Part shown: one piece after another, positions 1,275 through 44,482 of the stretch
Numbering within the stretch: position 1 is the stretch's first letter
Layout of the letters: the number at the start of each line of letters is the position of its first letter
Assembly (NCBI GenBank): GCA_946414805.1
Contig: CAMKPZ010000003.1
Span: 273,662 to 337,661, forward strand
DNA length: 64,000 nt
From: an uncultured Bacteroidales bacterium
GTDB lineage: Bacteria; Bacteroidota; Bacteroidia; Bacteroidales; Paludibacteraceae
Direction of reading: 5' to 3'
Notes under the pieces: model-generated
What the model saw: the letters and a program-made list of their open reading frames with translations, nothing else
What the model was told of the DNA's origin: nothing
Databases searched by the model: none
Translations under genes and position numbers: made by a program

Positions 1275-1309
1275 AATTCTCAATTATCAACTCTCAATTC
1301 TCAATTATA
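1275..1309. repeat. Heptamer tandem array (AATTCTC family)
   Basis: Five 7-bp units (AATTCTC, AATTATC, AACTCTC, AATTCTC, AATTATA) fill the spacer between the topoisomerase stop and the first recognisable maf codons. The array continues into the frame of maf and appears to occupy the place of its start codon. Confidence 0.85.
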
Positions 1310-1870
1310 TTAGGTTCTCAGTCTCCGCGCCGCCGCGAGTTAATGGCGGGCTTGGGATTTTCGTTCACTTCGGTTTCCATTGATGCGGATGAGTCGTATC
1401 CCTCGGATCTGCAAGCCGGCGATATTCCTCATTATATATCGCGTGCGAAAGCGCGCGCGTATGCGCCTCTCTTGCAGGAGAACCAGCTCCTTGTCACTGC
1501 CGACACCATCGTCTGGGCGGATGGTAAGATGCTCGGTAAGCCTCATAACGTAGAAGAGGCCTTTGCCATGCTTCGTTCGCTCAGCGGCAAAACCCATCAG
1601 GTCTATACGGCGGTTACTTTCGCTCAAATCGCCAATCACCAATTAGACTTATCAACCCTCGTCGATAAAACCGATGTCACCTTTGCCGAACTGTCAGATG
1701 AGGAGATCCGGTATTACATTGATCACTACCGTCCGTTTGACAAAGCCGGTGCGTATGGGATCCAGGAGTGGATCGGATACGTGGCATGCACAAAGATAGA
1801 GGGCTCCTATTTTAATGTCATGGGCTTTCCCGTCCACCGAGTATATGAATACTTGAAAGCCTTGGGATAA
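1304..1870 (+). CDS. maf: Maf-like nucleoside triphosphate pyrophosphatase, probable non-ATG start
   Basis: Maf proteins hydrolyse non-canonical or modified nucleoside triphosphates in the cytoplasm. The conserved N-terminal signature is present as LGSQSPRRRELMAGLGF, followed by TADTIVW and LGKPHN, the LSGKTHQVYTAV core, and a C-terminal KAGAYGIQEW motif. The first ATG (1343) lies inside this signature and would delete LGSQSPRRREL, so translation should begin upstream. No ATG, GTG or TTG is in frame after the stop at 1274; the only candidates are ATT (1304), ATA (1307) or ATC (1286), all inside the heptamer array. The start used here is ATT 1304, which gives about 189 residues, normal for the family. 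A weak array also lies within the gene near 1624 (IANHQL). Confidence 0.85.
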   Translation: MILGSQSPRRRELMAGLGFSFTSVSIDADESYPSDLQAGDIPHYISRAKARAYAPLLQENQLLVTADTIVWADGKMLGKPHNVEEAFAMLRSLSGKTHQVYTAVTFAQIANHQLDLSTLVDKTDVTFAELSDEEIRYYIDHYRPFDKAGAYGIQEWIGYVACTKIEGSYFNVMGFPVHRVYEYLKALG

Positions 1871-1906
1871 ATACATAATTTATCCTCTCAACCTCCCGAA
1901 AATTGG

Positions 1907-1945
1907 ACATTTGCCGCTAAAAAAACGGCAAATGTTGTTTTTTTA
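1907..1945 (+). terminator. Intrinsic terminator after maf
   Basis: A perfect 10-bp stem (ACATTTGCCG and its complement, 1907-1916 with 1926-1935) around a loop of CTAAAAAAA is followed by a T-rich tract. Confidence 0.85.
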
Positions 1946-1954
1946 TAGAAAATA

Positions 1955-1986: not shown

Positions 1987-2037
1987 TCGCCGTGATTAAC
2001 AAACAATCTTTATTAACCTTTTAAAAAAATTACAATT

Positions 2038-2577: not shown

Positions 2578-2600
2578 TCATAGCGAATGAGCAATAAAAA

Positions 2601-2630: not shown

Positions 2631-2637
2631 GTATATC

Positions 2638-2658
2638 AATCACCAATTACCAATCCCC
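2638..2658. repeat. Heptamer array (AATCACC family), 3 units
   Basis: AATCACC, AATTACC and AATCCCC stand in tandem immediately downstream of the prenyltransferase stop, between the two convergent genes. Confidence 0.75.
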
Positions 2659-2663
2659 GGTTC

Positions 2664-3623
2664 TCACATTCCTCTCACTACGCAGAGGCTGTAGAGCATT
2701 CCGATGAACATTGTGAATTTGATCACCTGCTGGCAGGTTCTGTAGTCGCTCGGGATCTTTGCAGACCACAGCAGCCATAGCGCGCCGAGCAGCGGAGTGA
2801 CGATCCCTAAGGCAATATACCGCGTGCTGAGACTCGTCCAGCCGGTAGGGAAGGGGAGCACGTGATACCATAGATGGCCGATGATTGCGAGTGTGAGAAC
2901 GATCAGACCGGTCACAAAGACTTTGGTCCATTTCTCGCCCCATACCACGGGCATCGAGTGGCATTCCAACTCGCGGTCGCCCATCTGGTCCTGCAAATCT
3001 TTGATGATCTCGCGGATCCACGTGAGCAGAAAGGCGAAGAGCGCAAAACCGCCAAGCCATACATACAGATCGTGCTCCAGCGTGGTGTAGGGCAATATCT
3101 TGCCGAACCGTAACTGTAGGATCGCGGTATTGGCCATCGCTATCATCATCGGTACCAGACCCGAGAGAAGGGCGATCGTCAGATTGCCGATCAGGAAGAG
3201 GCGTTTGTAACTGCTGGAGTAGAACCACAACAGACCCGGTACCATCAGGAAAAGGATGCCGAGTGTCACGCTTCGCAGGAGTACCGCCGTCACGATGCCG
3301 CAAGCGATTCCTGCTCCGCTTAGACCTAAGCTCATCCGCATCGCTGCCGGTTTGCTCACAGTTCGCGTCACGACCACCTCGTCAGGACGGTTGATACGGT
3401 CGATCTTGACATCAAAATAGTCGTTGATCACATAGCCGCCGGCGGCAATCAGTATGATCGCAGCCCCGAGCAGAACTAACATCCCTCCGCTCAGTTGTTC
3501 GCCGAATGCAACGCGGTCCAGGATCGGTACGGCTACCCATTTCTCCATAAGCCATACTAACATGCCTAAAAACAGCAGATTGCTCCACCGTACCAGTTTT
3601 GCTATGTCTCTAATCTGTTCCAA
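2664..3623 (-). CDS. UbiA-family prenyltransferase
   Basis: An integral membrane prenyltransferase that would transfer an isoprenoid chain to an acceptor; menaquinone, haem or lipid pathways are all possible. The first Asp-rich motif is NDYFDVKIDRINRPD (about residues 87-101) and the second is DLQDQMGDRE (about 209-218), both typical of the UbiA superfamily. Seven to nine hydrophobic segments are visible. The substrate cannot be read from the sequence; Bacteroidales homologues are usually annotated as geranylgeranylglycerol-phosphate synthase-like. There is no ATG near the expected N-terminus: the frame begins with TTG at 3623 inside or next to an 8-bp repeat array, giving MEQIRDIAKLVRW, which matches the usual family start. 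It is the last gene of the pta-ackA-GH13 minus-strand run. Confidence 0.85.
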   Translation of the reverse strand: MEQIRDIAKLVRWSNLLFLGMLVWLMEKWVAVPILDRVAFGEQLSGGMLVLLGAAIILIAAGGYVINDYFDVKIDRINRPDEVVVTRTVSKPAAMRMSLGLSGAGIACGIVTAVLLRSVTLGILFLMVPGLLWFYSSSYKRLFLIGNLTIALLSGLVPMMIAMANTAILQLRFGKILPYTTLEHDLYVWLGGFALFAFLLTWIREIIKDLQDQMGDRELECHSMPVVWGEKWTKVFVTGLIVLTLAIIGHLWYHVLPFPTGWTSLSTRYIALGIVTPLLGALWLLWSAKIPSDYRTCQQVIKFTMFIGMLYSLCVVRGM

Positions 3624-3625: not shown

Positions 3626-3657
3626 TTCAAACCTTCAAACTTTCAAACCTTCAATAT
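3626..3657. repeat. Octamer array (TTCAAACY), 4 units
   Basis: TTCAAACC, TTCAAACT, TTCAAACC and TTCAATAT stand in tandem. The array spans the GH13 stop codon (TGA at 3645-3643 on the minus strand lies in it) and reaches the TTG start of the prenyltransferase. Confidence 0.85.
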
Positions 3658-5306: not shown

Positions 5307-5376
5307 AATTCTCAATTCTCAACTCTCAATTCTCAATTCTCAATTCTCAATTCTCAACTCTCAATTCTCAATTAAA
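5307..5376. repeat. Heptamer array (AATTCTC), 10 units
   Basis: Ten contiguous 7-bp units (mostly AATTCTC, two AACTCTC, last AATTAAA) fill the ackA-GH13 spacer. The ackA stop (TAA, 5374-5372 minus strand) is provided by the last unit. Confidence 0.9.
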
Positions 5377-6562: not shown

Positions 6563-6580
6563 AATTTTAAATGATTAATA

Positions 6581-6629
6581 AATTCTCAATTCTCAATTCT
6601 CAATTCTCAATCCTCAATTCTCAATCCCC
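6581..6629. repeat. Heptamer array (AATTCTC), 7 units, 3' flank of the four-helix-bundle gene
   Basis: Seven contiguous units. The last four codons and the TGA stop of the four-helix-bundle gene (GIEN*) are encoded by the array itself. Confidence 0.9.
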
Positions 6630-6979
6630 TTCTTGCTGGTTCTAATGATAGAGGTTAATAGTTTTATGATTTCGTCGCAGTCGTTGTATATGGATTCATA
6701 ACTGCTCTCTTCAATAAAACTTCCTTCTTTCAATAAATCCAACCAATAGGCAGTTTCATCAGCTTCTTTTAATGCAATATTAAGTTTGCTGATAAAATCC
6801 AAGCGACTTTGAGCATTGCGAGACTCACGGCAATTAGCTCCTATGGATGTTCCTGAGCGAAGGATCTGTTTGGAAAGAACATATTCGTTTTTGTCAATTA
6901 GATATTTGTATAGATTTATTATGCGTATTGCAAATTTCATTGACTTTATCGCGATGATATTTTCCTCTCCTTTTGCCAT
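6614..6979 (-). CDS. Four-helix-bundle protein (23S rRNA intervening-sequence / Avd-like family)
   Basis: A 121-residue, all-helical protein with the family hallmarks: MKFAIRIINLYKYL, a Leu-Ser-Lys-Gln stretch followed by RSGTSIGANCRESRNAQS, then FISKLNIALKEADETAYWLDLL. The family includes ORFs found within 23S rRNA intervening sequences and Avd, the accessory protein of diversity-generating retroelements; no reverse transcriptase or rRNA is near it here. It sits alone between pta and ackA, with a heptamer array directly before its ATG (6979) and another that provides its stop. Its AT-rich codons differ from the GC-rich neighbours, and its interruption of an otherwise standard operon suggests insertion. 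Its function is unknown. Confidence 0.88.
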   Translation of the reverse strand: MAKGEENIIAIKSMKFAIRIINLYKYLIDKNEYVLSKQILRSGTSIGANCRESRNAQSRLDFISKLNIALKEADETAYWLDLLKEGSFIEESSYESIYNDCDEIIKLLTSIIRTSKKGIEN

Positions 6980-7039
6980 AATTCTCAATTCTCAATTCTC
7001 AATTAATTCTCAATTCTCAATTCTCAATTCTCAATTACC
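6980..7039. repeat. Heptamer array (AATTCTC), 5' flank of the four-helix-bundle gene
   Basis: Three units, a 4-bp AATT interruption, then four units and AATTACC. The array starts one base before the ATG of the four-helix-bundle gene and ends in the pta stop codon (TAA, 7037-7035). Confidence 0.9.
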
Positions 7040-8052: not shown

Positions 8053-8122
8053 AATTCTCAATTCCCAATTCCCAATTCTCAATTCTCAATTCTCAATTCT
8101 CAATTCTCAATTCTCAATTCCC
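8053..8122. repeat. Heptamer array (AATTCTC/AATTCCC), 10 units
   Basis: Exactly ten 7-bp units (70 bp) lie just upstream of the pta start, in its predicted 5' leader. Confidence 0.9.
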
Positions 8123-8152: not shown

Positions 8153-8218
8153 TAAGGGGGTGATAAGGGGGTGATTAGCGGGTGATTAGGGGGTGATTAG
8201 TGGGTCGTTAGTAGGACG
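8153..8218. repeat. 11-bp tandem array (TTAGGGGGTGA type), 6 units
   Basis: Six contiguous 11-bp units: two of TAAGGGGGTGA, then TTAGCGGGTGA, TTAGGGGGTGA and two more degenerate units. It lies in the 387-bp gap between the divergent pta and ompA-like genes. The rest of this gap holds the 7-bp array, the conserved head at 8212-8235 and two divergent promoters. Confidence 0.9.
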
Positions 8219-19738: not shown

Positions 19739-19862
19739 CAGACCTTGCCCAGACCTTGCGCCGAGGTTATACTGAGGAATTTAGCACGATTTTTAAGATT
19801 TGTTCTGACCACGGCTTAACCACGACTTGCCCTCGACTTGCCCTCGACTTAACCACGACTCG
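19739..19862. repeat. 11-bp-period tandem repeats upstream of the glucan locus
   Basis: Two 11-bp units (CAGACCTTGCC, CAGACCTTGCG) stand at 19739-19760, and five contiguous 11-bp units of ACCACGACTTG/CCCTCGACTTG type at 19808-19862. The 480-bp gap 19621-20100 also holds the terminator hairpin, the regulatory array copy B and a promoter; no gene was seen in it. Confidence 0.85.
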
Positions 19863-25893: not shown

Positions 25894-27465
25894 ATGAAAA
25901 ATATAGTTAAAAAAATAGCCCTTTGTACTTTGTACATTGTCCCTTTGTTCCTTTTCGTGGGTTGCAAGGATTGGTTGACGGCTCCGGAGCCCGGGCAGGT
26001 GAAACTGGAAGATTTCTTCACCTCAAAGGCTGCAGCCCGGCAATGCGTGAACGGATGCTATACACCGCTGATGTGGGAGTTCAAACGCACTTACTCCTGC
26101 GAGTGGTTTATTGGCGATGTGGTGAGCGATGATGCGCTTAAAGGCGGTCAGAACACTACTGATATGGGGGCTGCATATGATATGGAAAACTGGAAAACGA
26201 CACCGCGTAATGAACTGCTCCACGATTTCTATCAATCGAACTATATAGGCATCAGCCGCTGCAATCTGGCGTTGACCTATATCCCTGCAATGAAACCCGA
26301 TACGGCTTTCTCCGTCAAAGAGCGCGAAGAGATGTTAGGCGAGGCGCATTTCCTGCGCGCATACTATTATTTCCGTCTGCTGCGTGTGTTCGACGGCACT
26401 CCCCTTGTGACAACCGTATTGGACAGCAATGACAAGTGGTTGCAACCACGTGCCACCACTTCGGCTGTTTTTGACCGGATCATCAGCGATCTGAAGGAAG
26501 CACAACGTTTGTTGCCTACCGCCAGCCAGTGGGATGCCGACAATAAAGGACGAGCTACCAAAGGTGCTGCTGAGGCTATGTTACTCAAGACTTATCTCTA
26601 TATGGCGTCGCCATATTGGAATGCCAAGATCTCGGGAGACGCAGCCGGATATGCCAAAGAGGCGAAGGCATGGGGCGATTCGATCATCGCATCCGGCGAA
26701 TACAGCCTCTGCCCGAACTATGCGGATAACTTCACTGTGGAGGGAGAGAACGGACAGGAGTCTGTCTTTGAAATCCAGTATAAAGAAGTGGCATGGGGAG
26801 ATTATGGCGAAGGCTTTGGCTATACAGCCGGCAACTTTACGCAGCGTCTGGTTCGCTCCCGTTCGGCTACGATGACTGACGGTGATGCAGGATGGGGATT
26901 CAACCACCCGACGCAGAATCTCTATGATGAGTTTGAGGCGGGCGATCCGCGCCGTGATGTGGCGATCCTCAATCCCGATCCGGCGAAAATGGACAACCCT
27001 ACCGAAGAGATATATCTGGGTAGCCCGTACCTGAATAACAAATACGGATGGTACGGCAACAAGATCGCTCATGACAGCCGCGGTCCGCTTAATAACAAGC
27101 AGATCCGTTATGCCGATGTGCTGCTGATGTATGCGGAGGCTTGTCTGCTAACCGGTGATGCGGGAACGGCTAAGACTTATATTGATCAAGTGCGCTCCCG
27201 TGTAGGGTTACCGGGCGTGCCGGCTGCCGATGAGACTGCTCTTCGTCATGAGCGCCGGTGCGAATTGGCTATGGAGGGGCACCGTTGGTTCGATCTCGTC
27301 CGCTGGGGCGGTACCAAAGCACATATGGATGCTTATGCCGCTACCGAGACCGAAGAAGCACGCTCCCATATGGGTACTTTCCGCGAAGGAGTGCATGAGA
27401 TATTCCCCATTCCGGTTGAGGAGATCGAACTCAATCCCATGGAGCAGAACCCCGGATATAATTGA
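25894..27465 (+). CDS. SusD-like surface glycan-binding lipoprotein
   Basis: A 523-residue RagB/SusD lipoprotein that caps SusC and binds its glycan. Lipobox Cys at about residue 25 (LFVGCKDW). Helical TPR core with FLRAYYYFRLLRVFDGTPLV and a C-terminal RYADVLLMYAEACLLTGD, RHERRCELAMEGHRWFDLVRW and NPMEQNPGYN, all typical of the family. The signal-peptide core is encoded by a 7-bp array (CTTTGTA, CTTTGTA, CATTGTC, CCTTTGT; 25921-25948), giving LCTLYIVPLFLF. Confidence 0.96.
   Translation: MKNIVKKIALCTLYIVPLFLFVGCKDWLTAPEPGQVKLEDFFTSKAAARQCVNGCYTPLMWEFKRTYSCEWFIGDVVSDDALKGGQNTTDMGAAYDMENWKTTPRNELLHDFYQSNYIGISRCNLALTYIPAMKPDTAFSVKEREEMLGEAHFLRAYYYFRLLRVFDGTPLVTTVLDSNDKWLQPRATTSAVFDRIISDLKEAQRLLPTASQWDADNKGRATKGAAEAMLLKTYLYMASPYWNAKISGDAAGYAKEAKAWGDSIIASGEYSLCPNYADNFTVEGENGQESVFEIQYKEVAWGDYGEGFGYTAGNFTQRLVRSRSATMTDGDAGWGFNHPTQNLYDEFEAGDPRRDVAILNPDPAKMDNPTEEIYLGSPYLNNKYGWYGNKIAHDSRGPLNNKQIRYADVLLMYAEACLLTGDAGTAKTYIDQVRSRVGLPGVPAADETALRHERRCELAMEGHRWFDLVRWGGTKAHMDAYAATETEEARSHMGTFREGVHEIFPIPVEEIELNPMEQNPGYN
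25921..25948 (+). repeat. Heptamer array forming the SusD signal peptide
   Basis: Four 7-bp units of CTTTGTA type lie in frame. The perfect repeat would encode L-C-T-L-Y-F-V; the gene reads LCTLYIV. Confidence 0.7.
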
Positions 27466-31098: not shown

Positions 31099-32084
31099 AT
31101 ATGAATAAATTCTCCATTCTCACTTCTCCATTCTCCATTCTCTTCGTCTGCTTGTTGCTCATGTCCTGCTCCAAGCCGGAGTGGCAGCTCGTCTGGTCCG
31201 ATGAGTTTGACGGCGGGACGCTGAATACCGCTTATTGGAATGTGGAGGACAACGCCCGCGGAGGCGGTAATGCGGAGCTCCAGTACTATGCTCCGAAGAA
31301 TATCACGATAGAGAAGCACCCCGTTTCCGGCGAGAACTGTCTGGTGCTCAATGCTATCCGCGAGGACTACGGCAACAGACCTTGCACTTCGGCACGCCTT
31401 AACACCCAGGACAAAGTGACGGTGCAGTACGGAAAGGTGGAAGCGCGTATCGCTTTTCCGCATACCGCCGACGGACTCTGGCCCGCCTTCTGGATGCTGG
31501 GCAACAACCTTGCGCACGATCTGGGGAATAACGACGATGTGGACACGCGTGCTGCGCAGTTGGCGGAGCAGGGACTGGTCGTCTGGCCCAAATGCGGCGA
31601 GATAGATATCTGCGAGATGGGCCACCATACGGGGATTGAGAACGGCACCCAGGACCGCTTCTTCAACGGTGCTTGCCATTGGGGCGAGAGTTTCAACAAC
31701 GGTGCGTACCCCAATGTGGGCGGCTTCTGTACTGCCGAATATCCGGTGCAGGGTGATTTCCACCTCTTCACTCTGGAATGGACTGAGGACTCGATAGCAA
31801 TGTATCTGGATAAGGACCGCTATCCCGGGGCGGCGCCTTATTTCCAACTCTCCCTGCGTGGCAAGGAACTTAACCAACCGGGGCATTATTTCAACCATCC
31901 CTTCTATCTGGTGCTCAATCTCTCGGTGGGCGGTTTCTTCCCCGGTATGCCTGCCTCGGAGAAATATCCGGAGCTCATCACGGCGGACGACCCTTCCTTC
32001 CTCCGCGTGACCGCTCTTCCGGAGGATGGCACGCCGGTCAAGATGTATGTGGATTATATTCGTGTTTATAAGAAGAAATTATGA
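31095..32084 (+). CDS. Second GH16 beta-glucanase lipoprotein, signal peptide from a heptamer array
   Basis: A 329-residue lipoprotein with lipobox LLMSC (Cys about 25). The GH16 domain starts WQLVWSDEFDGGTLN, has catalytic GEIDICEMG and ends in VDYIRVYKKKL; a long insertion between the N-terminal strands and the catalytic strand (GNNLAHDLGNNDDVD) sets it apart from the first GH16. The hydrophobic core FSILTSPFSILF is encoded by a 7-bp array (ATTCTCC units, 31109-31142). An alternative ATG lies at 31101. It overlaps its neighbours by 4 nt on both sides. Confidence 0.93.
   Translation: MNMNKFSILTSPFSILFVCLLLMSCSKPEWQLVWSDEFDGGTLNTAYWNVEDNARGGGNAELQYYAPKNITIEKHPVSGENCLVLNAIREDYGNRPCTSARLNTQDKVTVQYGKVEARIAFPHTADGLWPAFWMLGNNLAHDLGNNDDVDTRAAQLAEQGLVVWPKCGEIDICEMGHHTGIENGTQDRFFNGACHWGESFNNGAYPNVGGFCTAEYPVQGDFHLFTLEWTEDSIAMYLDKDRYPGAAPYFQLSLRGKELNQPGHYFNHPFYLVLNLSVGGFFPGMPASEKYPELITADDPSFLRVTALPEDGTPVKMYVDYIRVYKKKL
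31109..31142 (+). repeat. Heptamer array forming the second GH16 signal peptide
   Basis: ATTCTCC, ATTCTCA, CTTCTCC, ATTCTCC and ATTCTC stand in tandem in frame. The perfect repeat would encode F-S-I-L-H-S-P. Confidence 0.85.
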
Positions 32085-33526
32085 TGAAACTGTCTGTTAA
32101 AGAAAAATTAGGCTACAGCTTGGGTGACACCGCCTCCCATTTCGTATGGGACATGGTGAATTTCTGGTTGATCTTCTATTACACCGATGTGTTGGGGATC
32201 AGTCCGGCGTGGTCCACTACGATCGCTATCCTCGGTACGGTGATGGATGCCGTCATGGATCCGATAGTGGGCGTATGGGCGGACCGTACCAATACGCGGT
32301 GGGGGAAGTTCCGGCCCTTCCTGCTCTTCGGATGTGTGCCGTTTGCGCTCTTCGCCTTCCTGGCTTTCTATGGCCCGGCGCTGCAGGGCAATGCGCTGAT
32401 CACCTATATCCTGCCGATGTTCATCGGACTGCGGATCATCTATGCGATCGTCAATATCCCCTATTCGTCGCTGGGGGCCGTCATGACGGATGACTCGATC
32501 GAACGTGCCGGACTCAACTCCTACCGGTTTGTGGCGGCGAATATAGGCCAGCTGATCGTTTCGGGTCTGGCACTGTATATCGTTTATTATCTGGGCGCGC
32601 AGGCTACGGGGATGGATTATTCGGTCATGTCGGATGACGCTTTGCGTAAGGAGTTCATGGAGCAGACGCTTGCCAACGCCTCCGTCGTGAAATCGTCTTA
32701 TATCATCGGCTTCCGCTATCTGGTGGCGATCTTCGGATGCATCGGCGTGGTGCTCTTCCTGATCACGTTCTTCACGACGAAGGAACGCGTCGCTCCGCCT
32801 AAACGCCAGGATATGCATCTCGGACGCGATATCAAGTATCTCTTCATGAATCGTCCGTGGGTAGTGCTGACCCTCGTGGGAATCGTCTCCTTCATCATGT
32901 TCGCCATCCAGAATATCTCGGCTACCTATTATTTCAAGTATTTTCTGGACGCAGAGTCCAAGAGCCAGATCTTCAATATCCTCGGTACGGCGGCGCTGAT
33001 CGTCGCGATACCGCTGACCAAACCGCTGGTGAAGCGGTTCGGAGCGAAGCAGCTCTATATAGCCTGCTCGTTGCTGTCGGGACTCTTCTTCTGCCTCCTC
33101 TTCTTCGCGGGGCGGAACTTCGTGCTCATCAATATCTTCAACTGCCTGGGTAAGATCTCCTATGCGCCGGCGATCTCGCTGCTGTGGACGATGCTGGCGG
33201 ATGCTGCCGATTACGGCGAGTGGAAATTCCGCCGCCGCACTACCGGACTGTGCCTCTCCGCCGCGGTCTTCGCCCAGAAGATCGGATGGTCTGTCGGAGC
33301 CGCTCTCTTCGGAGCGGTCATGTCCGCGGTGGGATACAATGTGGAGACGATGACGATGACGCAGATCCAGAATAATCCCGCGATCATGGATAGCATCCAT
33401 TGGCTCTTCGGGATCGTGCCGGGACTGCTGTATGCCTCCTGCGCAATCTTCCTCGCTTTCTATAATCTGGACAAGGCCGCGATGGCGCAGATGAAAGCCG
33501 GACTGGAACAGAGCCGGAAAGAATAA
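32081..33526 (+). CDS. GPH-family (MFS) sugar:cation symporter
   Basis: A 481-residue inner-membrane transporter with about 12 helices. Family signatures are KEKLGYSLGDTASHFVWDMV at the N-terminus, MDAVMDPIVGVWADRTNTRWGKFRPFLL after helix 2, and WTMLADAADYGEWKFRRRTTG in the second half, as in the melibiose/glycoside-pentoside-hexuronide symporters. It probably brings beta-gluco-oligosaccharides into the cytosol for the phosphorylase encoded next. The start is ATG 32081 or the adjacent ATG 32084; both overlap the GH16 stop. Confidence 0.93.
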   Translation: MMKLSVKEKLGYSLGDTASHFVWDMVNFWLIFYYTDVLGISPAWSTTIAILGTVMDAVMDPIVGVWADRTNTRWGKFRPFLLFGCVPFALFAFLAFYGPALQGNALITYILPMFIGLRIIYAIVNIPYSSLGAVMTDDSIERAGLNSYRFVAANIGQLIVSGLALYIVYYLGAQATGMDYSVMSDDALRKEFMEQTLANASVVKSSYIIGFRYLVAIFGCIGVVLFLITFFTTKERVAPPKRQDMHLGRDIKYLFMNRPWVVLTLVGIVSFIMFAIQNISATYYFKYFLDAESKSQIFNILGTAALIVAIPLTKPLVKRFGAKQLYIACSLLSGLFFCLLFFAGRNFVLINIFNCLGKISYAPAISLLWTMLADAADYGEWKFRRRTTGLCLSAAVFAQKIGWSVGAALFGAVMSAVGYNVETMTMTQIQNNPAIMDSIHWLFGIVPGLLYASCAIFLAFYNLDKAAMAQMKAGLEQSRKE

Positions 33527-33556
33527 ATGTGCAAATGAATAAATGCGAAAATGAAT
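33525..33556 (+). repeat. Octamer array (AAATGNNN), 4 units
   Basis: AAATGTGC, AAATGAAT, AAATGCGA and AAATGAAT stand in tandem between the symporter stop and the phosphorylase. It offers several possible starts (ATG 33535, 33559). The same 8-bp family is inside the GH30 gene. Confidence 0.8.
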
Positions 33557-36500: not shown

Positions 36501-36720
36501 CGCCCCGCTGATGCTCACGGACAGCGACTTCAAAGACGGCGAACTTCGCTTCACCTATTGCGGTACGGAGATCATCTATCGTAAGGCAGACTCAGTCTGC
36601 CGGTCCGAAGGACAGTCTGTACTCTGTCAGGCGAAGCCGGTCTGTGTCCTCTCCAAAGAACAATCTTCCCATATCTTCGCCCGCGACGGCGAAATAAAAC
36701 AACTGATTATAGAGTTATGA
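33535..36720 (+). CDS. Large inverting glucan phosphorylase-like enzyme (GH149/GH161-like)
   Basis: A protein of about 1060 residues without a signal peptide, related to the GH94/GH149/GH161 inverting phosphorylases: N-terminal beta-sandwich (GQFITINGERFYEIANYDEM, LRFSYLWAPAGEHGWVRRAT) and an (alpha/alpha)6 core with YQGNWRDIFQNWEALSVSYP, DGYNPYRI and SNIGYWGDHQIIYLLKLLEL. Beta-1,3-glucan phosphorylases of this type release glucose-1-phosphate from oligosaccharides in the cytosol, which fits the symporter beside it. The assignment to GH149 or GH161 is by eye. The start may be ATG 33535 or 33559 because an array precedes it. Three repeat blocks lie inside the frame (34302, 36241, 36595). The stop overlaps the GH30 start. 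Confidence 0.7.
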   Translation: MNKCENEFMVTGQFITINGERFYEIANYDEMQPFFISLASDTDLWMYLASTGGLTAGRRSPDEALFPYYTDDKITENYETTGPKTVFRIKGEPFQVNGDLLWIPFSDRRQDVFVISRKIAKSTVGNRIVFCEENHTLKLRFSYLWAPAGEHGWVRRATIENLGNRDTGLEMVDGLLNVLPAGVERKTQNEFSTLVDGYKKTELVGNLALFRMEAILVDRAEPSESLRCNTVYALGLPSGTEYSVSEQTLRDFRANRIPLQYPCYTLGESKGVRGAFLAHTRFTLPARASHTWYNVADVSADAVQVRHLMRFIARPDAIGTVEQAMQHSTDTLRAIVAKNDGVQHTADEHNDARHFANVLFNTMRGGYYLEYPPKKMQRDDVPCTNDTERHEMEYLPLTFGRRHGDPSRPWNLFDIRVQDEHGNPVVAYQGNWRDIFQNWEALSVSYPLYINHIIAKFLNATTVDGYNPYRITDKGIDWEVIEPENPWSNIGYWGDHQIIYLLKLLELSHAHDPRALHALLNRRIFAFANVPYRLKSYREIVADPKNSIWFDDALHQRIMAKVADEGADAKLVHDAAGQVMHTTMADKLLITLLAKLSNFIPEAGIWMNTLRPEWNDANNALVGYGTSMVTLCYMRRYVAFLLRFIDTDITLATETLDWLRAIRPAYINGNRRQFTDIVGLAAEHYRTRAYAGLSGETELLPLGELQDFLSATLRKIDESIRANRREDGLYEAYNLIRFTESDIEISHLYEMLEGQVAVLSSGLLDADEAADLLDAMRASALYREDQRSYMLYPNRRRASFLELNNIPDSPWLRANGEKYLQAGYLTRDEDGGYHFNAAYRNAAGLPAELADVYESVFHHHAFTGRSGTFYKYEGLGCIYWHMVSKLLLAVGETIQSYSEALLQHGGLAATRSCSDAVLKRLMHHYAAIREGLGSHKQPAEYGSFPFDPYSHTPSMAGVQQPGMTGQVKEDILNRFFELGVSVQDGRITFAPLMLTDSDFKDGELRFTYCGTEIIYRKADSVCRSEGQSVLCQAKPVCVLSKEQSSHIFARDGEIKQLIIEL
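34302..34334 (+). repeat. In-frame 11-bp tandem repeat, 3 units, inside the phosphorylase gene
   Basis: TATACCCTTGC, AATACCCTTGC and TATACCCTTGG are contiguous; 33 bp keeps the frame and encodes IPLQYPCYTLG. Confidence 0.85.
36241..36288 (+). repeat. In-frame 16-bp tandem repeat, 3 units, inside the phosphorylase gene
   Basis: CAGCATGGCGGTCTTG, CAGCAACGCGGTCCTG and TAGCGACGCGGTCCTG are contiguous (48 bp, 16 codons). They resemble the CAGCGAAGCGGTCTGT unit of the GH3 gene. Confidence 0.8.
36595..36645 (+). repeat. GNA-hairpin repeat near the phosphorylase C-terminus
   Basis: GTCCGAAGGAC, TCTGTACTCTGTCAG and GCGAAGCCGGTCTGT are read as SVCRSEGQSVLCQAKPVCV. The same words occur in the GH3 blocks at 42637 and 43320. 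Confidence 0.7.
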
Positions 36721-38363
36721 GAAAGATATTCATTATTCATTGTTCATTATTCATTATGATTCTATTGGCGTCCTGTACGCCGCAAATACAATCATCCCAT
36801 GTATGGCTGACTAGCGAATCTGGCGACAAATGCGCCGAGGCGCCTGCCGTAGTGTTCCGCAAAGGCCGCGCTGCTGATGCGGTGGTGGTTGATCCTGCTG
36901 CTACCCGCCAGACCATAGACGGCTTCGGAGGTTCGCTTACGGAGAGCTCGGCGTTCGTGCTGGCATGCCTTTCGCCCGAAAAGCGGCAGGCGGTGATCGC
37001 GGAACTGTACGGCGAGGAGGGGGCGAACTTCTCCATGTCACGTACCCAGATCGGCGCATCCGATTTCTCGGTGGAAGGCAGATACTCGCTGGCTGAACTG
37101 GACGGAGATACGGCGTTGCTCTCCTTCTCGCTGGATCGGGATAAGGAGGGCTTTGCGAAGACGCAGTATCCTCAGATCCGCGATGAACACTATGATCTCT
37201 ATCATCTCATGAAAGAGGTATGGGCGCTCAAGCAGGCTCAGGCGGATAAGACCTATCGCATTGTGGCGAACACATGGACGGCACCGGCGTGGATGAAGGA
37301 GAATAAGAAATACTACGAGCGTGAGAATGGCTTCCATCGAGGAGGCGCCTTGCTGCCGGAGTATTATGCTGCCTATGCTGACTATCTGGTGAAATACGTA
37401 GAAGCGTGGAAAGCCGAAGGAGTGGATATATGGGCGGTCACGCCGGTCAATGAACCGATGGGAAACGACGGCGGATGGGAGAGTATGGATTTCCCGCCGC
37501 AGGTCGAAGCGGAGTTTATTGGAAAATACCTTGGCCCGCGACTAAATGAGAAAATAGGTAAATGCGAAAATGCGAAAATAGTAAATATCCTTGGTTTTGA
37601 CCAGAATATCTTTGAGATGGGACCTTATACGGCGGCTGTCTATGGTGACTCGCTTGCTGACGCATACACCACCGGTATGGCGGTGCATTGGTACGGCTCT
37701 ACGGTGGATTGCTTCCCTGAGGTGCTGGATTCCATCCATGCTCTCTATCCCGATAAGACGATCCTCCATACCGAGGGATGTATTGACAATCTGGGATGCG
37801 AACCCTGGGACGGGGTGACCGATCCGGTGGGGTTCAAAGAGTCCGGATGGTTTGATAACGATGCTTTCTGGTGGACTTCGTCCGCTACCGACTGGGCGTA
37901 TTCCACGCGCTGGGCAGGCGATACCCATCCCGCCTACGCACCCGTGCATCGCTACGCGCGGTATATTATAGAAGGTATGAACCATTGGCTGACCGGTTTC
38001 ATCGATTGGAATATCGTTCTGGACTCCATCGGAGGACCGAACCATGTCAATAACTTCGCCGGAGCACCGGTGATGGTCGATTATCAGAACGATAAGATCT
38101 ATTATACCCCCTATTACTATGTCCTCAAGCAGTTCAGCCGCTCCATGCGGCCGGGCGATAAGGTGCTTGCGGTTACCGGTTCTCCATTCCCGGCTCTCCA
38201 TTCCCGGCTCTTCCTCTGTGCTACGCAAAACAAGGAAGGACAAATCGCCGTCAATATTCTCAATACCGGCGAGGCTGTCACTTTCCCCTTGCAAGTCGGA
38301 GAATACGTGGCGCAGGTAGCCATGCCTGCGAATAGTGTAGAAACGATTATAGTAAAATTATGA
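36717..38363 (+). CDS. GH30 beta-glucanase lipoprotein (beta-1,6-glucanase candidate)
   Basis: A 548-residue lipoprotein (ILLASC, Cys about 20). The GH30 (beta/alpha)8 domain shows TIDGFGGSLTESSAFVL, SRTQIGASDFS, acid/base Glu in TPVNEPMG and nucleophile Glu in LHTEGCID, then the flanking beta-domain with IDWNIVLDSIGGPNH. In a beta-1,3-glucan locus the GH30_3 activity (endo-beta-1,6-glucanase) is likely, to remove side chains; glucosylceramidase-type activity is the alternative. The signal-peptide core (FIIHCSLFIMI) comes from a 7-bp array. An 8-bp array (37543-37582) and a short TTCTCCATTCCCGG-type repeat near 38178 lie within the frame. Confidence 0.9.
   Translation: MRKIFIIHCSLFIMILLASCTPQIQSSHVWLTSESGDKCAEAPAVVFRKGRAADAVVVDPAATRQTIDGFGGSLTESSAFVLACLSPEKRQAVIAELYGEEGANFSMSRTQIGASDFSVEGRYSLAELDGDTALLSFSLDRDKEGFAKTQYPQIRDEHYDLYHLMKEVWALKQAQADKTYRIVANTWTAPAWMKENKKYYERENGFHRGGALLPEYYAAYADYLVKYVEAWKAEGVDIWAVTPVNEPMGNDGGWESMDFPPQVEAEFIGKYLGPRLNEKIGKCENAKIVNILGFDQNIFEMGPYTAAVYGDSLADAYTTGMAVHWYGSTVDCFPEVLDSIHALYPDKTILHTEGCIDNLGCEPWDGVTDPVGFKESGWFDNDAFWWTSSATDWAYSTRWAGDTHPAYAPVHRYARYIIEGMNHWLTGFIDWNIVLDSIGGPNHVNNFAGAPVMVDYQNDKIYYTPYYYVLKQFSRSMRPGDKVLAVTGSPFPALHSRLFLCATQNKEGQIAVNILNTGEAVTFPLQVGEYVAQVAMPANSVETIIVKL
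36728..36755 (+). repeat. Heptamer array forming the GH30 signal peptide
   Basis: ATTCATT, ATTCATT, GTTCATT and ATTCATT stand in tandem in frame; a perfect repeat would encode F-I-I-H-Y-S-L. Confidence 0.85.
37543..37582 (+). repeat. In-frame octamer array inside the GH30 catalytic domain
   Basis: TAAATGAG, AAAATAGG, TAAATGCG, AAAATGCG and AAAATAGT: five 8-bp units, encoding LNEKIGKCENAKIV just before the ILGFDQN strand, where the family normally has a short loop. Confidence 0.8.
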
Positions 38364-41300: not shown

Positions 41301-42145
41301 CCTATCCCGATTATGGTATCTATACCGTCACCCGCACCGTGGAGGACTGTTCCGCCTCGCTGACGATCGTTGTGCTGGAGACGGAGCAGGCTGCCTCTCT
41401 CGAGGTCTCGCCTCAAGAAGTAACTCTGCCGCTGGGCGAGACACAACTCTTCGATATCCGTATCGTGAACCAGTTCGGCGGGAAGGTGGACGGCTGTTCG
41501 GCTTCCTTCCGCGCTACCCGGGTGGGGGACACGACGGTTGTCTTCGATTGTTATGAGGCGCAGGCTTCTGCGCTCGTGCATGTGAAGGATTACGGAGAAG
41601 TGAACCTGGCGCTCGGCAAACCCGCTACGGCGTCCGGAGCCGAAGGGGACGGCACCTCTGCCGGCAAAGCCGTGGACGGCAATATGGAGACCCGCTGGTC
41701 CAGCCGCTTCATGGATAATGAATGGCTGGCGGTCGATCTGGAGGACTGCTATCGCCTGACTACGGTCAAGCTCTATTGGGAGAACGCCTATGCCACCTCT
41801 TTTGATATCGAGGCAAGCGATGATGGCGAGGACTATCATCTGATCAAGTCCGTCACGAATGCCAAGGGAGGCGTGCAGACAATCGATATCAGGGTGAATG
41901 ACGAACCGGTGGCGGCGCGTTTTGTCCGTATTCTCTGCAAGACCCGTAACACCGGCTACGGTTCTTCCCTCTGGGAGATGGAGGTCTTCGGCGAATCGCG
42001 ATGCACAGGACCCGGGACGGCAATCACCAATAACCAATCACCGGTAACCAATCACAAATATATCAAGGATGGGCAATTATTTATCTCGCACGGCGGTGTT
42101 GTGTACACTGTTGGCGGTCTTGTTTTCATGCACGACAACCGATAA
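38360..42145 (+). CDS. GH81 endo-beta-1,3-glucanase with two F5/8C domains and sorting-like C-terminus
   Basis: A 1261-residue secreted enzyme (signal peptide ending about VSTLSAQ). GH81 hallmarks are GFDTSYDSDTFNDHHFHYGYF, FNPYCGHSFAGG and the catalytic-Glu segment GNGQESSSEAMQSWGG, then MHSIQWLPTSP. Behind the catalytic part (to about residue 790) come an F5/8 type C domain (about 800-930), an Ig-like linker (about 935-1070), a second F5/8C domain (about 1075-1210) and a C-terminal motif (KYIKDGQLFISHGGVVYTV). GH81 enzymes cut beta-1,3-glucan endolytically. Repeats lie in frame at 39161 and 42021. The start overlaps the GH30 stop (ATGA); the last 77 nt also encode the GH3 signal peptide in another frame. 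Confidence 0.93.
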   Translation: MKKIFGLSPLSAAVFLLSTFTLAVSTLSAQTPVPMGAGSYASFTPLAESRSSLHDGCQAYQTEHRPVYLPDSLLARLAPADGSQEGTLTLPSNDWWTYALVNTWTGKLWFYPGWAEAKDGELQIGFPSYWEPTGCEVKWDTPLSVSFTRTETGRKAVFTEALVDNWSDFMMSFIMQDGDLWVRVTCMQGSPLVWIETSGITAHVTNPDNARYAVFSDPQVTTVALLTDGLDAARAEAYARRIPRRTRLDYQVDMTRSVLTTTFRIYTNDQMANDQIVNDQIVNVLMAFLPHHYYSSEGMNDPTANAQMLNAVYLSPRGQMRLAEGNDFAFVYPVSGFLPFFPAPREWKEGFSRDRMLALESDYAARGTFGADTYWGGKGLTQMMHYMTFALQMGDTATFLTAKKRLRATLEDWYTYTPGEQNRYFARFPRWGAMIGFDTSYDSDTFNDHHFHYGYFIYASAVLCMLDPDFKTKYGPMAREVALDYACWLRDSNRYPLFRTFNPYCGHSFAGGMGNGGNGNGQESSSEAMQSWGGIWLLGEALGDQEMRDAGIFGYTVEAKATAEYWFDRNRRNIDYTKYTHPYCCNLTMQGVGWWTWFSGDPVWMHSIQWLPTSPVLTNYFSQDLAFTRWDYTEMYSHKEVGNYEASAGGLGDESGLGNVCLSYLALFDADSAARVWDRMDAMGKALAKNPDTGGITYWLAHSHRSLGEKRFDIHAAHPMACAYTDTLTGVTTYAAYNASSAPVAVHFFGAKDTTVSVPANSLLVTTDDGFPASVCTAIAEEEETVEPDPLAWDLPYPNLALHKPVTVSSEENAGCLAKYLTDGKTDTRWGSAHRDNEWAMVDLGETCYIDHLVLRWEAAYASAYELAFSDDALTWHTALLSSSGGVETLSPSLVGRAGERWTSRARYIRITGVERATAYGTSLYELEAYGRPLAGDPSALFVIALSATDTVLCQGQTTTLTTTAYNYSGEVISSRSETLTYPDYGIYTVTRTVEDCSASLTIVVLETEQAASLEVSPQEVTLPLGETQLFDIRIVNQFGGKVDGCSASFRATRVGDTTVVFDCYEAQASALVHVKDYGEVNLALGKPATASGAEGDGTSAGKAVDGNMETRWSSRFMDNEWLAVDLEDCYRLTTVKLYWENAYATSFDIEASDDGEDYHLIKSVTNAKGGVQTIDIRVNDEPVAARFVRILCKTRNTGYGSSLWEMEVFGESRCTGPGTAITNNQSPVTNHKYIKDGQLFISHGGVVYTVGGLVFMHDNR
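39161..39209 (+). repeat. In-frame 15-bp repeat in the GH81 gene
   Basis: AAATGACCAAATTGT occurs twice in tandem (39175-39204), preceded by a degenerate copy, and reads NDQMANDQIVNDQIVN. Related AAATG words recur at about 39260 (NDPTANAQMLN). Confidence 0.8.
42021..42055 (+). repeat. In-frame heptamer array before the GH81 C-terminal motif
   Basis: CAATCAC, CAATAAC, CAATCAC, CGGTAAC and CAATCAC, five 7-bp units, read as AITNNQSPVTNH. They form the linker between the last F5/8C domain and the sorting-like motif. Confidence 0.85.
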
Positions 42146-44435
42146 GACGGAAGAAGACCGGTTTATTGACGATCTGCTCTCCCGCATGACGCTGGAGGAG
42201 AAGATCGGCCAGATGAACCAACTCGATCCTTCGTGGAACGGAGAGGAGAAAGAGGCGCTGATCCGTGAGGGGAAAGTGGGTTCGGTCTTCAATATCGTTT
42301 CTGCCAAGGAGATCAACCGCCTGCAGCGCATGGCGGTGGAGGAGACCCGTCTGGGTATTCCTCTGGTGGCGGCGCGCGATGTGATCCATGGATACAGGAC
42401 GATCTATCCCATCCCGCTGGGGCAATCCGCTACCTGGAACCCCGGCCTCGTGGAGCAGGCGGCGCAACTGACAGCGCAGGAAGCTGCCTCGGACGGCATC
42501 CGCTGGGCGTTCTCGCCGATGGTGGATGTGGCGCATGACCCGCGATGGGGACGGGTCGCGGAGGGATACGGAGAAGACACCTATCTCGCCTCCGTCATGG
42601 CTGCCGCCACTGTCCGTGGCTACCAACACGAAATATCTGTCAGTCCGAAGGACGGTCTATCAGCGAAGCGGTCTGTCAGCGAAGCGGTCTGTCAGTCCGC
42701 AGGACGGTCTGCCGGTCTGACGAGACCGGCTATGGCTGCCTGCGTCAAGCATTTCGCCGGCTATTCGGCTTCCGAAGGAGGACGCGATTATAACACCACT
42801 TGGATCCCCGAGACCCAGCTCCGTGATATCTACCTGCCGCCCTTCAAAGCGGCGCTGGACGCCGGAGCGATGAGCGTGATGTGCTCTTTCAATGACCTCA
42901 ACGGCTTGCCTTCCTCGGCGAACCGTCATCTGAATGTGGATATCCTCCGCCATGAGTGGGGTTCCGATGCCTTGCTTGTCAGCGACTGGGGATCCGGCTC
43001 GGATCTCGTGCCGCATGGACTCTGTGCCGATAAGAAAGAAGCGGCGCTCCGTTGCATCAACGCCCGCATGGAGATGGACATGCAGGGCAATATCTACCAT
43101 GACTATCTGGCGCAGCTCGTAAATGAACAAATGGTAGATGAACGGATGATAGATGCCTGTGTCCGCTCGGTCCTCCGTCTCAAATACCGGCTGGGACTCT
43201 TTGAGAACCCCTATGTGCCGGAGGACGAAAGGAAAGTCTATACCCCGCAGGAGTTGGAAGTGGTGACCCGCATGGCGGAAGAGTCCGCTATCCTCCTCAA
43301 GAACAACGGCATCCTGCCCCTGTCTGTCAGTCCGCAGGACGGTCTGTCGGCGAAACGGTCTGTCTTAATCACCGGCCCCATGGCGCATCAGCCTAAGGAA
43401 CAGCTCGGTACGTGGATCTTCGACGGTGACACCTCCCTCTCCGTCACACCCCTGGAGGCTTTTGAGCAATTCTCAACGCTCAATTCTCAATGCTCGGTTA
43501 CCTTCGTTCCCGGTCTTGCATACAGCCGTGACCGGAACAAAGCCGGTATAGCGCAAGCGGTGGCGGCGGCGAAGAAAGCGGATGTGATCCTGTATTTCTG
43601 CGGCGAGGAAGCGATCCTCTCGGGTGAAGCACGGTGCCGTGCCAGTCTCGATCTGCCGGGGGCGCAGGCGGAACTGATGGATGCGCTGGCGGCTACAGGC
43701 AAACCCGTTGTCATGATCGTCATGGCGGGGCGTCCGCTTACGATCGGCAGACAGGTGGAGCAGGCTGCCGCCGTGCTCTATGCTTTCCACGGCGGAACGA
43801 TGGCGGGCGAAGCGCTGCGGCGGCTGGTCATGGGCGAAGCTGTCCCGTCCGGCAAGACGACAATGACCTTCCCCAAGATGGTAGGCCAGATCCCGCTCTA
43901 TTATAATCGCCATAACACAGGCCGGCCCTCTTACGACCCGCCTATGCTCATCGACTCGATCCCTATCGGCTGTCCCCAGTTCTCGATCGGTCAGTCCTCC
44001 TATTGGCTGGAGACGCCTACCGAGCCCCTCTTCCCCTTCGGCTATGGACTCAGTTATACTACCTTCGGGTACGGCGCACCGGATATCCGGATGGTGAATG
44101 ACCAAAAGGGAAATGAAATCACCGTTTCCTGTACCATCACGAACACCGGCTCCTATGATGCCTATGAGACGGCGCAACTCTATACCCGTCAGCTCTCGGG
44201 CGAACTGGTGCGGCCTATAAAGGAACTGAAGGGCTTTGAGAAAGTCTTCATCCCTGCGGGCGGAAGCCGGACGGTGACCTTCACGATCACTCCCGACCAA
44301 CTCGGTTACTGGCATGAGCAGAAGAACGATCGCGAGAGCCGTGTCTGGTTTGCTACGGACAAGGTTGATTTCGAGGCATGGATAGCCCCCGACTCGCGAT
44401 GCGGCACCCCTCCCGTCCGCTTCTCCCTCCGCTAA
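42069..44435 (+). CDS. GH3 beta-glucosidase lipoprotein carrying in-frame repeat insertions
   Basis: A 788-residue GH3 exo-enzyme for releasing glucose from beta-glucan oligosaccharides. Lipobox LLAVLFSC (Cys about 21). The (beta/alpha)8 domain has nucleophile Asp in LLVSDWGS; the second domain has the acid/base Glu region EEAILSGEARCRASLDLPG, and an FN3-like domain (TVSCTITNTGSYDAYETAQLY) ends it. Three insertions of repeat origin are in frame: about 30 residues after AATVRGYQ (42637-42718), SVSPQDGLSAKRSV after NNGILPL (43320-43364), and FSTLNSQCS before VTFVPGL (43467-43494). The ATG at 42069 gives the signal peptide but lies 77 nt inside the GH81 gene. Confidence 0.92.
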   Translation: MGNYLSRTAVLCTLLAVLFSCTTTDKTEEDRFIDDLLSRMTLEEKIGQMNQLDPSWNGEEKEALIREGKVGSVFNIVSAKEINRLQRMAVEETRLGIPLVAARDVIHGYRTIYPIPLGQSATWNPGLVEQAAQLTAQEAASDGIRWAFSPMVDVAHDPRWGRVAEGYGEDTYLASVMAAATVRGYQHEISVSPKDGLSAKRSVSEAVCQSAGRSAGLTRPAMAACVKHFAGYSASEGGRDYNTTWIPETQLRDIYLPPFKAALDAGAMSVMCSFNDLNGLPSSANRHLNVDILRHEWGSDALLVSDWGSGSDLVPHGLCADKKEAALRCINARMEMDMQGNIYHDYLAQLVNEQMVDERMIDACVRSVLRLKYRLGLFENPYVPEDERKVYTPQELEVVTRMAEESAILLKNNGILPLSVSPQDGLSAKRSVLITGPMAHQPKEQLGTWIFDGDTSLSVTPLEAFEQFSTLNSQCSVTFVPGLAYSRDRNKAGIAQAVAAAKKADVILYFCGEEAILSGEARCRASLDLPGAQAELMDALAATGKPVVMIVMAGRPLTIGRQVEQAAAVLYAFHGGTMAGEALRRLVMGEAVPSGKTTMTFPKMVGQIPLYYNRHNTGRPSYDPPMLIDSIPIGCPQFSIGQSSYWLETPTEPLFPFGYGLSYTTFGYGAPDIRMVNDQKGNEITVSCTITNTGSYDAYETAQLYTRQLSGELVRPIKELKGFEKVFIPAGGSRTVTFTITPDQLGYWHEQKNDRESRVWFATDKVDFEAWIAPDSRCGTPPVRFSLR
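42637..42718 (+). repeat. In-frame GNA-hairpin repeat block 1 in the GH3 gene
   Basis: The block holds GTCCGAAGGAC, two tandem CAGCGAAGCGGTCTGT units and GTCCGCAGGAC, joined by GGTCTGTCAG words. It reads SPKDGLSAKRSVSEAVCQSA and on, between GYQ and MAACVKHFAGY, which are close together in GH3 relatives. Confidence 0.85.
43320..43364 (+). repeat. In-frame GNA-hairpin repeat block 2 in the GH3 gene
   Basis: GTCAGTCCGCAGGACGGTC followed by TGTCGGCGAAACGGTCTGTC, read as SVSPQDGLSAKRSV. It shares its words with block 1, about 680 bp upstream. Confidence 0.85.
43467..43494 (+). repeat. In-frame heptamer array in the GH3 gene
   Basis: CAATTCT, CAACGCT, CAATTCT and CAATGCT, exactly four 7-bp units, read as FSTLNSQCS. 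It is the same family as the intergenic AATTCTC arrays. Confidence 0.9.
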
Positions 44436-44440
44436 ACACC

Positions 44441-44482
44441 CCAATCACCAATTACCAATTACCAATCATCAATTACCAATTT
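44441..44482. repeat. Heptamer array (CCAATTA), 6 units, after the GH3 gene
   Basis: CCAATCA, CCAATTA, CCAATTA, CCAATCA, TCAATTA and CCAATTT are contiguous, 6 nt after the stop of the last gene of the glucan locus. No separate terminator was seen here. Confidence 0.9.

Follow-up and report, generated by a model that had tools for sequence, protein, structure and literature searches.

Tandem arrays of 7- and 8-bp units are dispersed through the genome of an uncultured Bacteroidales bacterium, in spacers as well as in genes, and different repeat families are found at one and the same protein site in close relatives, mostly with the reading frame kept. The arrays were followed from a stretch of 64,000 nucleotides, hereafter the window (G000:C3:273662-337661), which belongs to a genome of 2.23 Mb in 24 contigs (G000, the own genome); other G-numbers stand for genomes of relatives used in the comparisons and L-numbers for loci. 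The source is a rumen-type Bacteroidales metagenome-assembled genome (MAG) with Paludibacteraceae as its nearest named relatives. The best named relatives of the GH30 gene in the window are rumen and gut MAGs labelled Bacteroidales or Paludibacteraceae, with a protein identity of at most 86%. Arrays at different sites also have imperfect stretches in common more often than in a simple null. These observations could be explained, with a probability that we put at about 0.5, by short-patch copying of arrays between sites, followed by their expansion and homogenisation, with selection retaining those copies that are in frame and at sites that tolerate them. In this group of rumen bacteria, the repeats seem to provide new protein sequence again and again.

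Arrays in spacers and genes

Arrays were detected with Tandem Repeats Finder (TRF) at a score of at least 40 in a 464-kb sample of the own genome, consisting of the window and 20 roughly evenly spaced 20-kb stretches of contigs C1, C2, C3, C4, and C5, and three dinucleotide shuffles of the sample served as the control. The sample contains 45 arrays of period 7 and 10 of period 8, compared to none of either in the shuffles. It also holds 22 arrays of period 9 and 32 of period 11, for which the shuffles give 0 and a mean of 2.0, respectively, and no array of periods 2-6 at this score. Array length in the samples is roughly 25-90 bp, and the unit families within G000 include AATTCTC, AATTCAC, AAAGTCG, ACGGCTG, and others. 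Three successive AATTCTC units (AATTCTCx3) have 52 overlapping matches in the whole own genome, and the reversed pattern has none. An earlier account of the window, made from its letters without database searches (the sequence-only reading), had named 15 array places and expected such arrays elsewhere in the genome. TRF returns arrays at 13 of these places, the runs at 2638 and 25921 being shorter and visible in the raw sequence, and the arrays are indeed dispersed across the own genome.

The same account had placed the repeats both in spacers and in coding sequence, and the sample bears this out. When a simple purpose-made gene caller was used, by which 85% of the sample is coding, 26 of the 55 period-7 and period-8 arrays fall within predicted genes, the remaining 29 being in spacers. 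Arrays are therefore depleted in genes, yet common there and not confined to spacers. The array-bearing genes include those of GH32, MurE, glutamyl-tRNA synthetase (GltX), a SIS/glutamine amidotransferase protein, a DAHP synthase/chorismate mutase, a SpoU-type methylase (three arrays), an M24 peptidase, and an O-methyltransferase. Two placements in the window had to be adjusted: the array given as a spacer array at 33525 is present but runs over the end of one gene and into the beginning of the following one (33521-33556), and the one at 42021 lies in a gene as stated, its precise place being the final 42 codons of the GH81 gene, immediately ahead of GH3.

The translated cycles proposed for three families, FSILNSQ, FIIHYSL, and TNYQLPI, are correct by hand translation. 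That the units are free of stops holds for 44 of the 45 observed, but this has little meaning alone since most heptamers qualify; 69% of all heptamers are stop-free on any given strand and 87% on at least one strand (77% at 35% GC). Moreover, stop-freeness is not an independent property, because roughly one array in two is in a gene, where stops would be disfavoured by selection.

Different repeat families at the same protein sites

The conserved methyltransferase PrmC (TIGR03534) was compared in 26 genomes; 4 of 30 loci had no usable reading frame, and one duplicate was left out, namely G316, the genome behind L069, which is seemingly the same record as G245 of the same genus (identical coordinates). 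By a criterion of at least 11 of 12 at lag 7, 8, 14, or 15, the interdomain linker is periodic in 15 of the 26 genomes, compared to 80 of 2600 sequence windows elsewhere in the same genes. The own genome (10 of 12) and G300 are below the criterion. Linker families are AATTCTC in G302, AAATATC in G311, CCAATTA in G312 and G309, AAAGGTT in G318, and 8- or 15-bp AAATG forms in G315, G245, G320, G296, G304, and G306, with the linker being identical in the last three. Between the two motifs used to delimit it, the linker has 15 residues in 11 of the 15 periodic genomes and in 6 of the 11 others. Before the NPPY motif of the same protein, CTTTCAA is present in G300 and G301, and CTTTCAC throughout in G302. 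As judged by eye, the array edges in PrmC often continue the local bases (ATAAATG, ATCAATTCTC).

Close relatives were examined in five pairwise comparisons, comprising the trio L054/L058/L059 and the pairs L066/L099 and L051/L052; thirteen pairs had been aligned, and the four above 86% identity were first read for segments. In the five comparisons, 88,459 columns were aligned, with 90% identity, and conserved anchors enclose 79 divergent segments. An array (lag 5-16) is present on at least one side in 24 of these segments and on both sides in 9; since the trio was compared pairwise, the 24 rows are not independent and represent about 15 separate places by our own count. Altogether, 33 of 135 segment sides were flagged (25 of them at lag 7 or 8), compared to 9 of 675 random segments of the same length. 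One loop of the large protein encoded upstream of GH30 carries CCCGTAA, AGTCGAA, and TCAGCAT, respectively, in the three members of the trio, which are about 90% identical, and one GH3 loop carries a palindromic repeat, CTTTCAA, and an 8-mer, respectively. In the pair L066/L099, the former reads DY-SPITNNQSP-IIYF and the latter DY-AND-IIYF, with 27 bp of TCACCAA in place of 9 bp; the L099 reading (YxND) is that of the GH30 consensus, which has ND. Length differs by a multiple of 3 in 20 of the 24 array rows and in 50 of the 55 other rows.

Alleles without a 7- or 8-bp array contain the full unit in only 1 of 12 rows, with a mean best match of 5.58 bases, compared to 5.34 for random segments. 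They thus hold the unit no more than chance would give, which makes local slippage alone unlikely, and replacement of patches, rather than expansion alone, seems to be at work. The earlier proposal that the repeats can expand inside genes without ending translation therefore describes part of the process only.

The GH30 gene was examined by a strict lag-7 test on 36 sequences, that of the window and those of 35 relatives. The signal peptide carries a heptamer run in 8 of them, with TTCATTA as the unit in the window, L049, L050, L051, and L052, AATTATC in L055, ACGATTT in L069, and a CACTTTT-like run in L099. The signal peptides of L056, L057, L066, and L074 show another repetitive type by eye, and the remaining ones are mostly ordinary-looking; the lipobox and the mature part align. 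Within the mature protein, runs at lags 7 and 8 are found at three places, near residues 285, 457, and 483-495 of the window protein, and 10 of 12 runs are at loop positions, against a loop background of 43% (AlphaFold model with a mean predicted local distance difference test score, pLDDT, of 86.5). No run was obtained at lags 5, 10, 11, or 13; lags 14 and 16 gave 13 and 11 runs, which we take to reflect multiples of the 7- and 8-base periods. The loop joining helix 261-280 to strand 290-297 is both lengthened and replaced by the 8-bp array at 37544. Of 37 aligned homologues, 3 have this array (those of the window, L049, and L050), and the other 34 are five residues shorter there. At the GH3 loop equivalent to that of the 43467 array, L050 has 7.7 copies of CAATTCT. 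The signal-peptide and loop arrays of GH30 are thus found in subsets of the homologues and not at the same place in all of them. Orthologues keep the rest of the protein and differ in repeat family or lack the repeat, in agreement with the suggestion that such arrays supply new linkers and signal peptides.

Signal peptides are one tolerated place for arrays, without a proven preference. The signal-peptide cores of the SusD (25921) and GH16 (31109) proteins are also repeat-coded, as observed in the window alone. The strict lag-7 test was applied to the first 105 nt of genes, codons 100-135, and the upstream region, where it was passed by 3/291, 2/291, and 9/281 in the own sample, by 0/164, 0/164, and 1/159 in stretches of G245, G041, and G151, and by 7/99, 0/99, and 9/64 in the GH30-bearing loci, which had been chosen via an array-bearing gene. 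N-terminal enrichment as a genome-wide rule was rejected on the basis of the near-equal N-terminal and interior counts in the own sample and of the zero N-terminal count in the stretches of G245, G041, and G151.

Other repeats were seen at comparable sites. GC-rich palindromic repeats of the CCCTTCCCTTCAGGGAGGGG.. GGGGTAGG type lie in frame in L054 near 2519, 4575, and 7176, in loops and a signal peptide, and also in the C-terminal loop of PrmC in G295, G296, G297, G304, and G306, and they occupy places where relatives have heptamer arrays. The gene preceding GH30 has repeat loops in relatives.

Spread of the arrays

The exchange of families, the mostly kept frame, the often kept length, the absence of the unit from the other allele, and the shared stretches are all covered by short-patch copying from existing arrays with later gain, loss, and homogenisation of units. 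A stretch of an existing array would replace a few tens of bases at another site, and the patch would probably be joined via a few matching edge bases, either by template switching or by annealing of a short single strand. The established array could then change its length by whole units, and its units could become alike. Most outcomes would be tolerated in spacers, and in genes selection would retain the in-frame outcomes in a signal-peptide core, surface loop, interdomain linker, or tail. We infer copying as the cause, together with edge matching, homogenisation, and the enzyme route. For the last, short-patch double illegitimate recombination (SPDIR) and template-switch filler DNA, joined by microhomology, can serve as models. 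Like the copying proposed here, both take short patches from elsewhere in the genome, and we know of no report that either favours tandem heptamers.

Shared imperfections are consistent with copying. In G000, 16 of 45 arrays have an internally imperfect exact 19-mer in common with another array of the sample (mean of 100 nulls 2.3, maximum 9); the figures are 15 of 53 for G301 (3.9 and 9) and 6 of 24 for G300 (0.3 and 2). Two G301 sites with unrelated flanks have 44 bp in common, and the G300 orthologue of one of them carries a different, shorter array. One shared stretch links an array in a gene (L013:14342) to an array in a spacer (L017:18651). Units are also reused within G000, at 8.7 sites per Mb versus 0.91 for permuted units; the result is less clear in G300 (3.4 versus 1.7) and reversed in G297 (0 versus 0.56). 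Among 16 genomes, AATTCTCx3 has 52 matches in G000, 51 in G301, 32 in G303, 28 in G302, and 1 in G306, and none in the other 11, including G300, which is about 92% identical to G301 in the aligned blocks.

Several points weigh against copying. No act of copying was observed, and donor-recipient pairs are at most candidates. Sharing of 21-mers is weaker, with 9 of 45 arrays in G000 (null mean 2.3, largest 7), 9 of 53 in G301 (2.95 and 9), and 4 of 24 in G300 (0.2 and 4), so that the count is equalled by at least one null in two of the three genomes, and the null itself deals substitutions randomly and ignores common sub-variants of a unit. The array-free allele is within one base of the unit in 6 of 12 rows, as random segments often are, and some array-free alleles carry other repeats, so the alternative alleles are not all ancestral. 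G000 units recur in other genomes at 8.2 sites per Mb, near the own value, and descent plus slippage therefore explains part of the shared vocabulary. Arrays with a same-unit partner are few in the small samples, at 0/9 in G297, 3/13 in G302, 3/11 in G307, and 6/23 in G300. Furthermore, changes of 21 bp in unit number between G301 and G300 are compatible with slippage: one orthologous site in prmC has five GAGAATT in G301 and two GAGATTT in G300, another site has four CAATTCT and one CAAATCT, respectively, and length differs at 9 of 18 orthologous array places.

These 21-bp changes and the vocabulary common to different genomes would also be expected if the arrays arose by local slippage only, that is, by repeated in-place duplication of a 7-bp word (via a polymerase footprint of about 7 bases, as suggested for heptamers of bacteria), with recurrence of families through composition and descent. 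According to the accessible text of two reports, heptamers are over-represented in many bacteria and polymerase slippage has been proposed for them (PMC4679880, PMC4692102). We nonetheless consider slippage as the sole source to be rather unlikely, because it leaves unexplained why close relatives have unrelated families at the same site, and because the unit is no more frequent than chance in alleles without a 7- or 8-bp array. The reuse of units above the permuted level in G000, less clear in G300 and reversed in G297, is a further point against it. Nor does mismatch-repair loss provide a general cause; this candidate was rejected since MutS_I was found in 10 of 12 genomes searched, including the own genome, being missing in G303 and G304 and partial in G306.

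Some simpler descriptions of the vocabulary were also rejected. A genome-specific vocabulary is not a general rule, given the similar densities of G000 units in the own and other genomes, and only some families (AATTCTC, AGTCGAA, and CAATYAC) differ strongly between genomes. AAATCTC does not replace the AATTCTC of G301 throughout G300, as AAATCTCx3 has 7 matches in G300 and 3 in G301. AATTCTC is not a marker of the order either, being found in 16 of 295 genomes, the own included. The reversed pattern is not a neutral control across the order, with CTCTTAA repeats in 8 of 295 genomes. CTCTTAA is a repeated heptamer in G100, G101, and G144 (22, 19, and 42 matches), which points to other vocabularies in other lineages.

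A dispersed core of 42 bp (6 x 7 bp) was noticed in relatives (L134:5445-5486 and L150:13435-13476, with further copies in L188-L211). When searched with at most 2 mismatches, it has 24 copies in 7 of 26 genomes. All 24 are flanked by AANNNNC-type units (once of 8 bp) in one phase, with C before and AA after the core; the left and right units of one copy are the same or alike, and the units differ between copies. A duplication-like setting was seen only at this core, which is distinct from the arrays. In G300 and G301 the core lies in frame within prmC. One tentative possibility is that an active process writes a shared 7-bp vocabulary into the genome, genes included, repeatedly overwriting signal peptides, loops, and linkers of glycosidases and housekeeping enzymes with repeat-coded peptides, and with the core as a part or a parasite of the machinery. 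The proposal that the arrays move along with, or are produced by, a small mobile element or dedicated enzyme, the core being the candidate element or a preferred lander in arrays, agrees with the setting of the 24 copies, but we regard it as improbable: some copies are at the same place in sister genomes or have one clear unit on a side only, the PrmC of G302 has an array without the core, and the core is absent (at most 2 mismatches) from G000, where arrays are common. Viral carriage of the core was rejected, as a 21-mer of it has no exact match in IMG/VR.

It is very doubtful that the repeats serve regulation or phase variation, with spacer arrays as binding sites or switches and coding arrays switching by frameshift. 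Many spacer arrays adjoin starts or stops, and TAACTGA heptamers upstream of starts have been proposed to be regulatory in Beggiatoaceae in the accessible part of one report (PMC4679880). However, families differ between close relatives, so that there is no conserved site, array segments mostly differ by multiples of 3 bp between species (the 20 of 24 rows above and the +21 in PrmC), and arrays are present within the housekeeping enzymes MurE, GltX, and PrmC. An assembly or binning artefact, which the titles of Bacteroidales records with GH30 homologues as MAGs or uncultured isolates might suggest, can practically be dismissed because the same arrays appear in records whose titles point to different studies (the GH30 loop in L049 and L050; the PrmC linker in G296, G304, and G306), reading frames are kept, and the arrays are, by our reasoning, short enough for one read.

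Known repeats and features of the window

Like the cyanobacterial short tandemly repeated repetitive sequences (STRRs) and other bacterial heptamers (Calothrix, Nostoc, Xanthomonas, and the TAACTGA of Beggiatoaceae), the present arrays have 7-bp units, are dispersed, and belong to several families. STRRs occur in the RNase P RNA gene and the tRNA-Leu intron. The accessible text of the STRR and heptamer reports (Xanthomonas, Beggiatoa) stresses spacers, whereas nearly half of the arrays here are in predicted genes and families alternate at fixed protein loops. According to the available portions of two reports, heptamer repeats are, as here, uneven between close relatives, most genomes of an earlier survey had the heptamer as their most frequent long unit (PMC4679880, PMC4692102), and TAACTGA contains stops and is said to end reading frames (PMC4679880). 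A link to this Beggiatoa/cyanobacterial heptamer was rejected, as a 20-mer of the TAACTGA repeat is found in 0 of 17 genomes. One G299 segment has a short TAACTGA run.

Rickettsia palindromic elements (RPEs) are small repeats lying in frame in unrelated genes and judged, in the accessible text, compatible with fold and function (PMC10969869). The present arrays are likewise in frame in unrelated genes, those of glycosidases, PrmC, MurE, GltX, the SpoU-type methylase, and others. As far as that text goes, RPEs are palindromic and about 150 bp long, whereas the arrays here are 7/8-bp tandem repeats, of which AATTCTC, the one tested, is without a hairpin (AATTCTCx5 folds at 0 kcal/mol); unlike RPEs, they take the place of existing sequence, often without a change in length, and a single site can have any of several families. 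A 2025 survey of short tandem repeats finds them dense in Bacteroidota, both genome-wide and in coding sequence, and units of 6-9 bp enriched in some prokaryotic phyla (PMC12699852); in its accessible part, no site-level comparison, loops, or signal peptides were found. In the open literature on bacterial heptamers, STRR, SPDIR, RPE, and signal-peptide tandem repeats, judged by titles and the beginnings of abstracts, no report of heptamer families alternating at protein loops was found. Bacterial heptamers and in-frame repeats of Rickettsia are known, and what appears to be new is the alternation of families at fixed loops, linkers, and signal peptides. Bacterial heptamers have mostly been regarded as material of spacers or as products of slippage. 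In the present group, parts of conserved proteins are replaced by them in frame, the units vary from one sister species to another, and translation and cell-wall enzymes are among the proteins concerned. They offer a DNA-level route for renewing loops and signal peptides and many natural comparisons for measuring protein tolerance. Caution is also advised, since a peptide coded by such repeats in a protein of this group is not necessarily a conserved motif or a domain feature.

The centre of the window is a polysaccharide locus with genes for a SusC-like TonB receptor, SusD, GH16, GH30, GH81, and GH3, and positions 5372-8033 hold the genes for acetate kinase (5372-6562, minus strand) and phosphate acetyltransferase (7035-8033, minus strand). 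The arrays and two of the genes that carry them are listed in Table 1. No terminal inverted repeats are visible by eye in the listed arrays; no systematic search was made.

Table 1. Repeat arrays of the window and two genes carrying them
Feature	Position	Strand	Evidence and setting
AATTCTC x4.6	1275..1306	+	TRF; spacer between genes 17-1273(+) and 1343-1870(+)
Short CAATCAC/CAATTAC run	2638..2660	+	Raw sequence, under TRF threshold; spacer
8-bp TTCAAACC x3.6	3626..3654	+	TRF; between UbiA-like gene (2664-3563 -) and alpha-amylase gene
AATTCTC x9.6	5307..5373	+	TRF; spacer between alpha-amylase and acetate kinase genes, both -
AATTCTC x6.4	6581..6625	+	TRF; spacer upstream of acetate kinase (5372-6562 -)
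AATTCTC x8.6, phase break	6980..7036	+	TRF; adjoins end of phosphate acetyltransferase gene (7035-8033 -)
AATTCTC x9.7	8053..8120	+	TRF; spacer upstream of phosphate acetyltransferase gene
SusD-family lipoprotein gene	25894..27465	+	Gene/profile annotation
Degenerate CTTTGTA run, SusD signal-peptide core (MKNIVKKIALCTLYIVPLFLFVGC)	25921..25949	+	Raw sequence, hand translation
ATTCTCC x4.9, signal-peptide core of GH16 protein (MNMNKFSILTSPFSILFVCLLL)	31109..31142	+	TRF
AAATGNNN run	33521..33556	+	TRF (as 16-mer); spans stop of 32081-33526 (MFS transporter) and start of 33535-36720
GH30 lipoprotein gene, basis of comparison with relatives	36717..38363	+	Gene annotation, homologue search
TTCATTA x4.4, GH30 signal-peptide core (MRKIFIIHCSLFIMILLASC)	36727..36757	+	TRF
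8-bp AAATGNNN run coding LNEKIGKCENAKIVNI, GH30 helix-strand loop	37544..37579	+	TRF
CAATCAC/CAATAAC x5.6, C-terminal tail of GH81 protein	42021..42060	+	TRF
CAATTCT/CAACGCT run within GH3 (EQFSTLNSQCSVT)	43467..43495	+	TRF (as 14-mer)
CCAATTA x5.9	44441..44481	+	TRF; spacer directly after GH3

Arrays of 9- and 11-bp units are also present in the window at 8155-8211, 19808-19860, and 63785-63876. A 16-bp family of the CGGTCTGTCAGCGAAG type was seen at 42653-42695 of the window, in the signal peptides of L056/L057/L066, and at L113:10198, and it seems to be built of heptamer-like repeats that are interrupted by a short GC-rich piece, for instance CGCTGCGCT. Two large proteins of the window, encoded at 55891-63510 (2539 aa) and 33535-36720 (1061 aa), are without a Pfam match, and a third, of 1707 aa (47434-52557), has Flg_new_2, an InlB-like repeat, as its single match.

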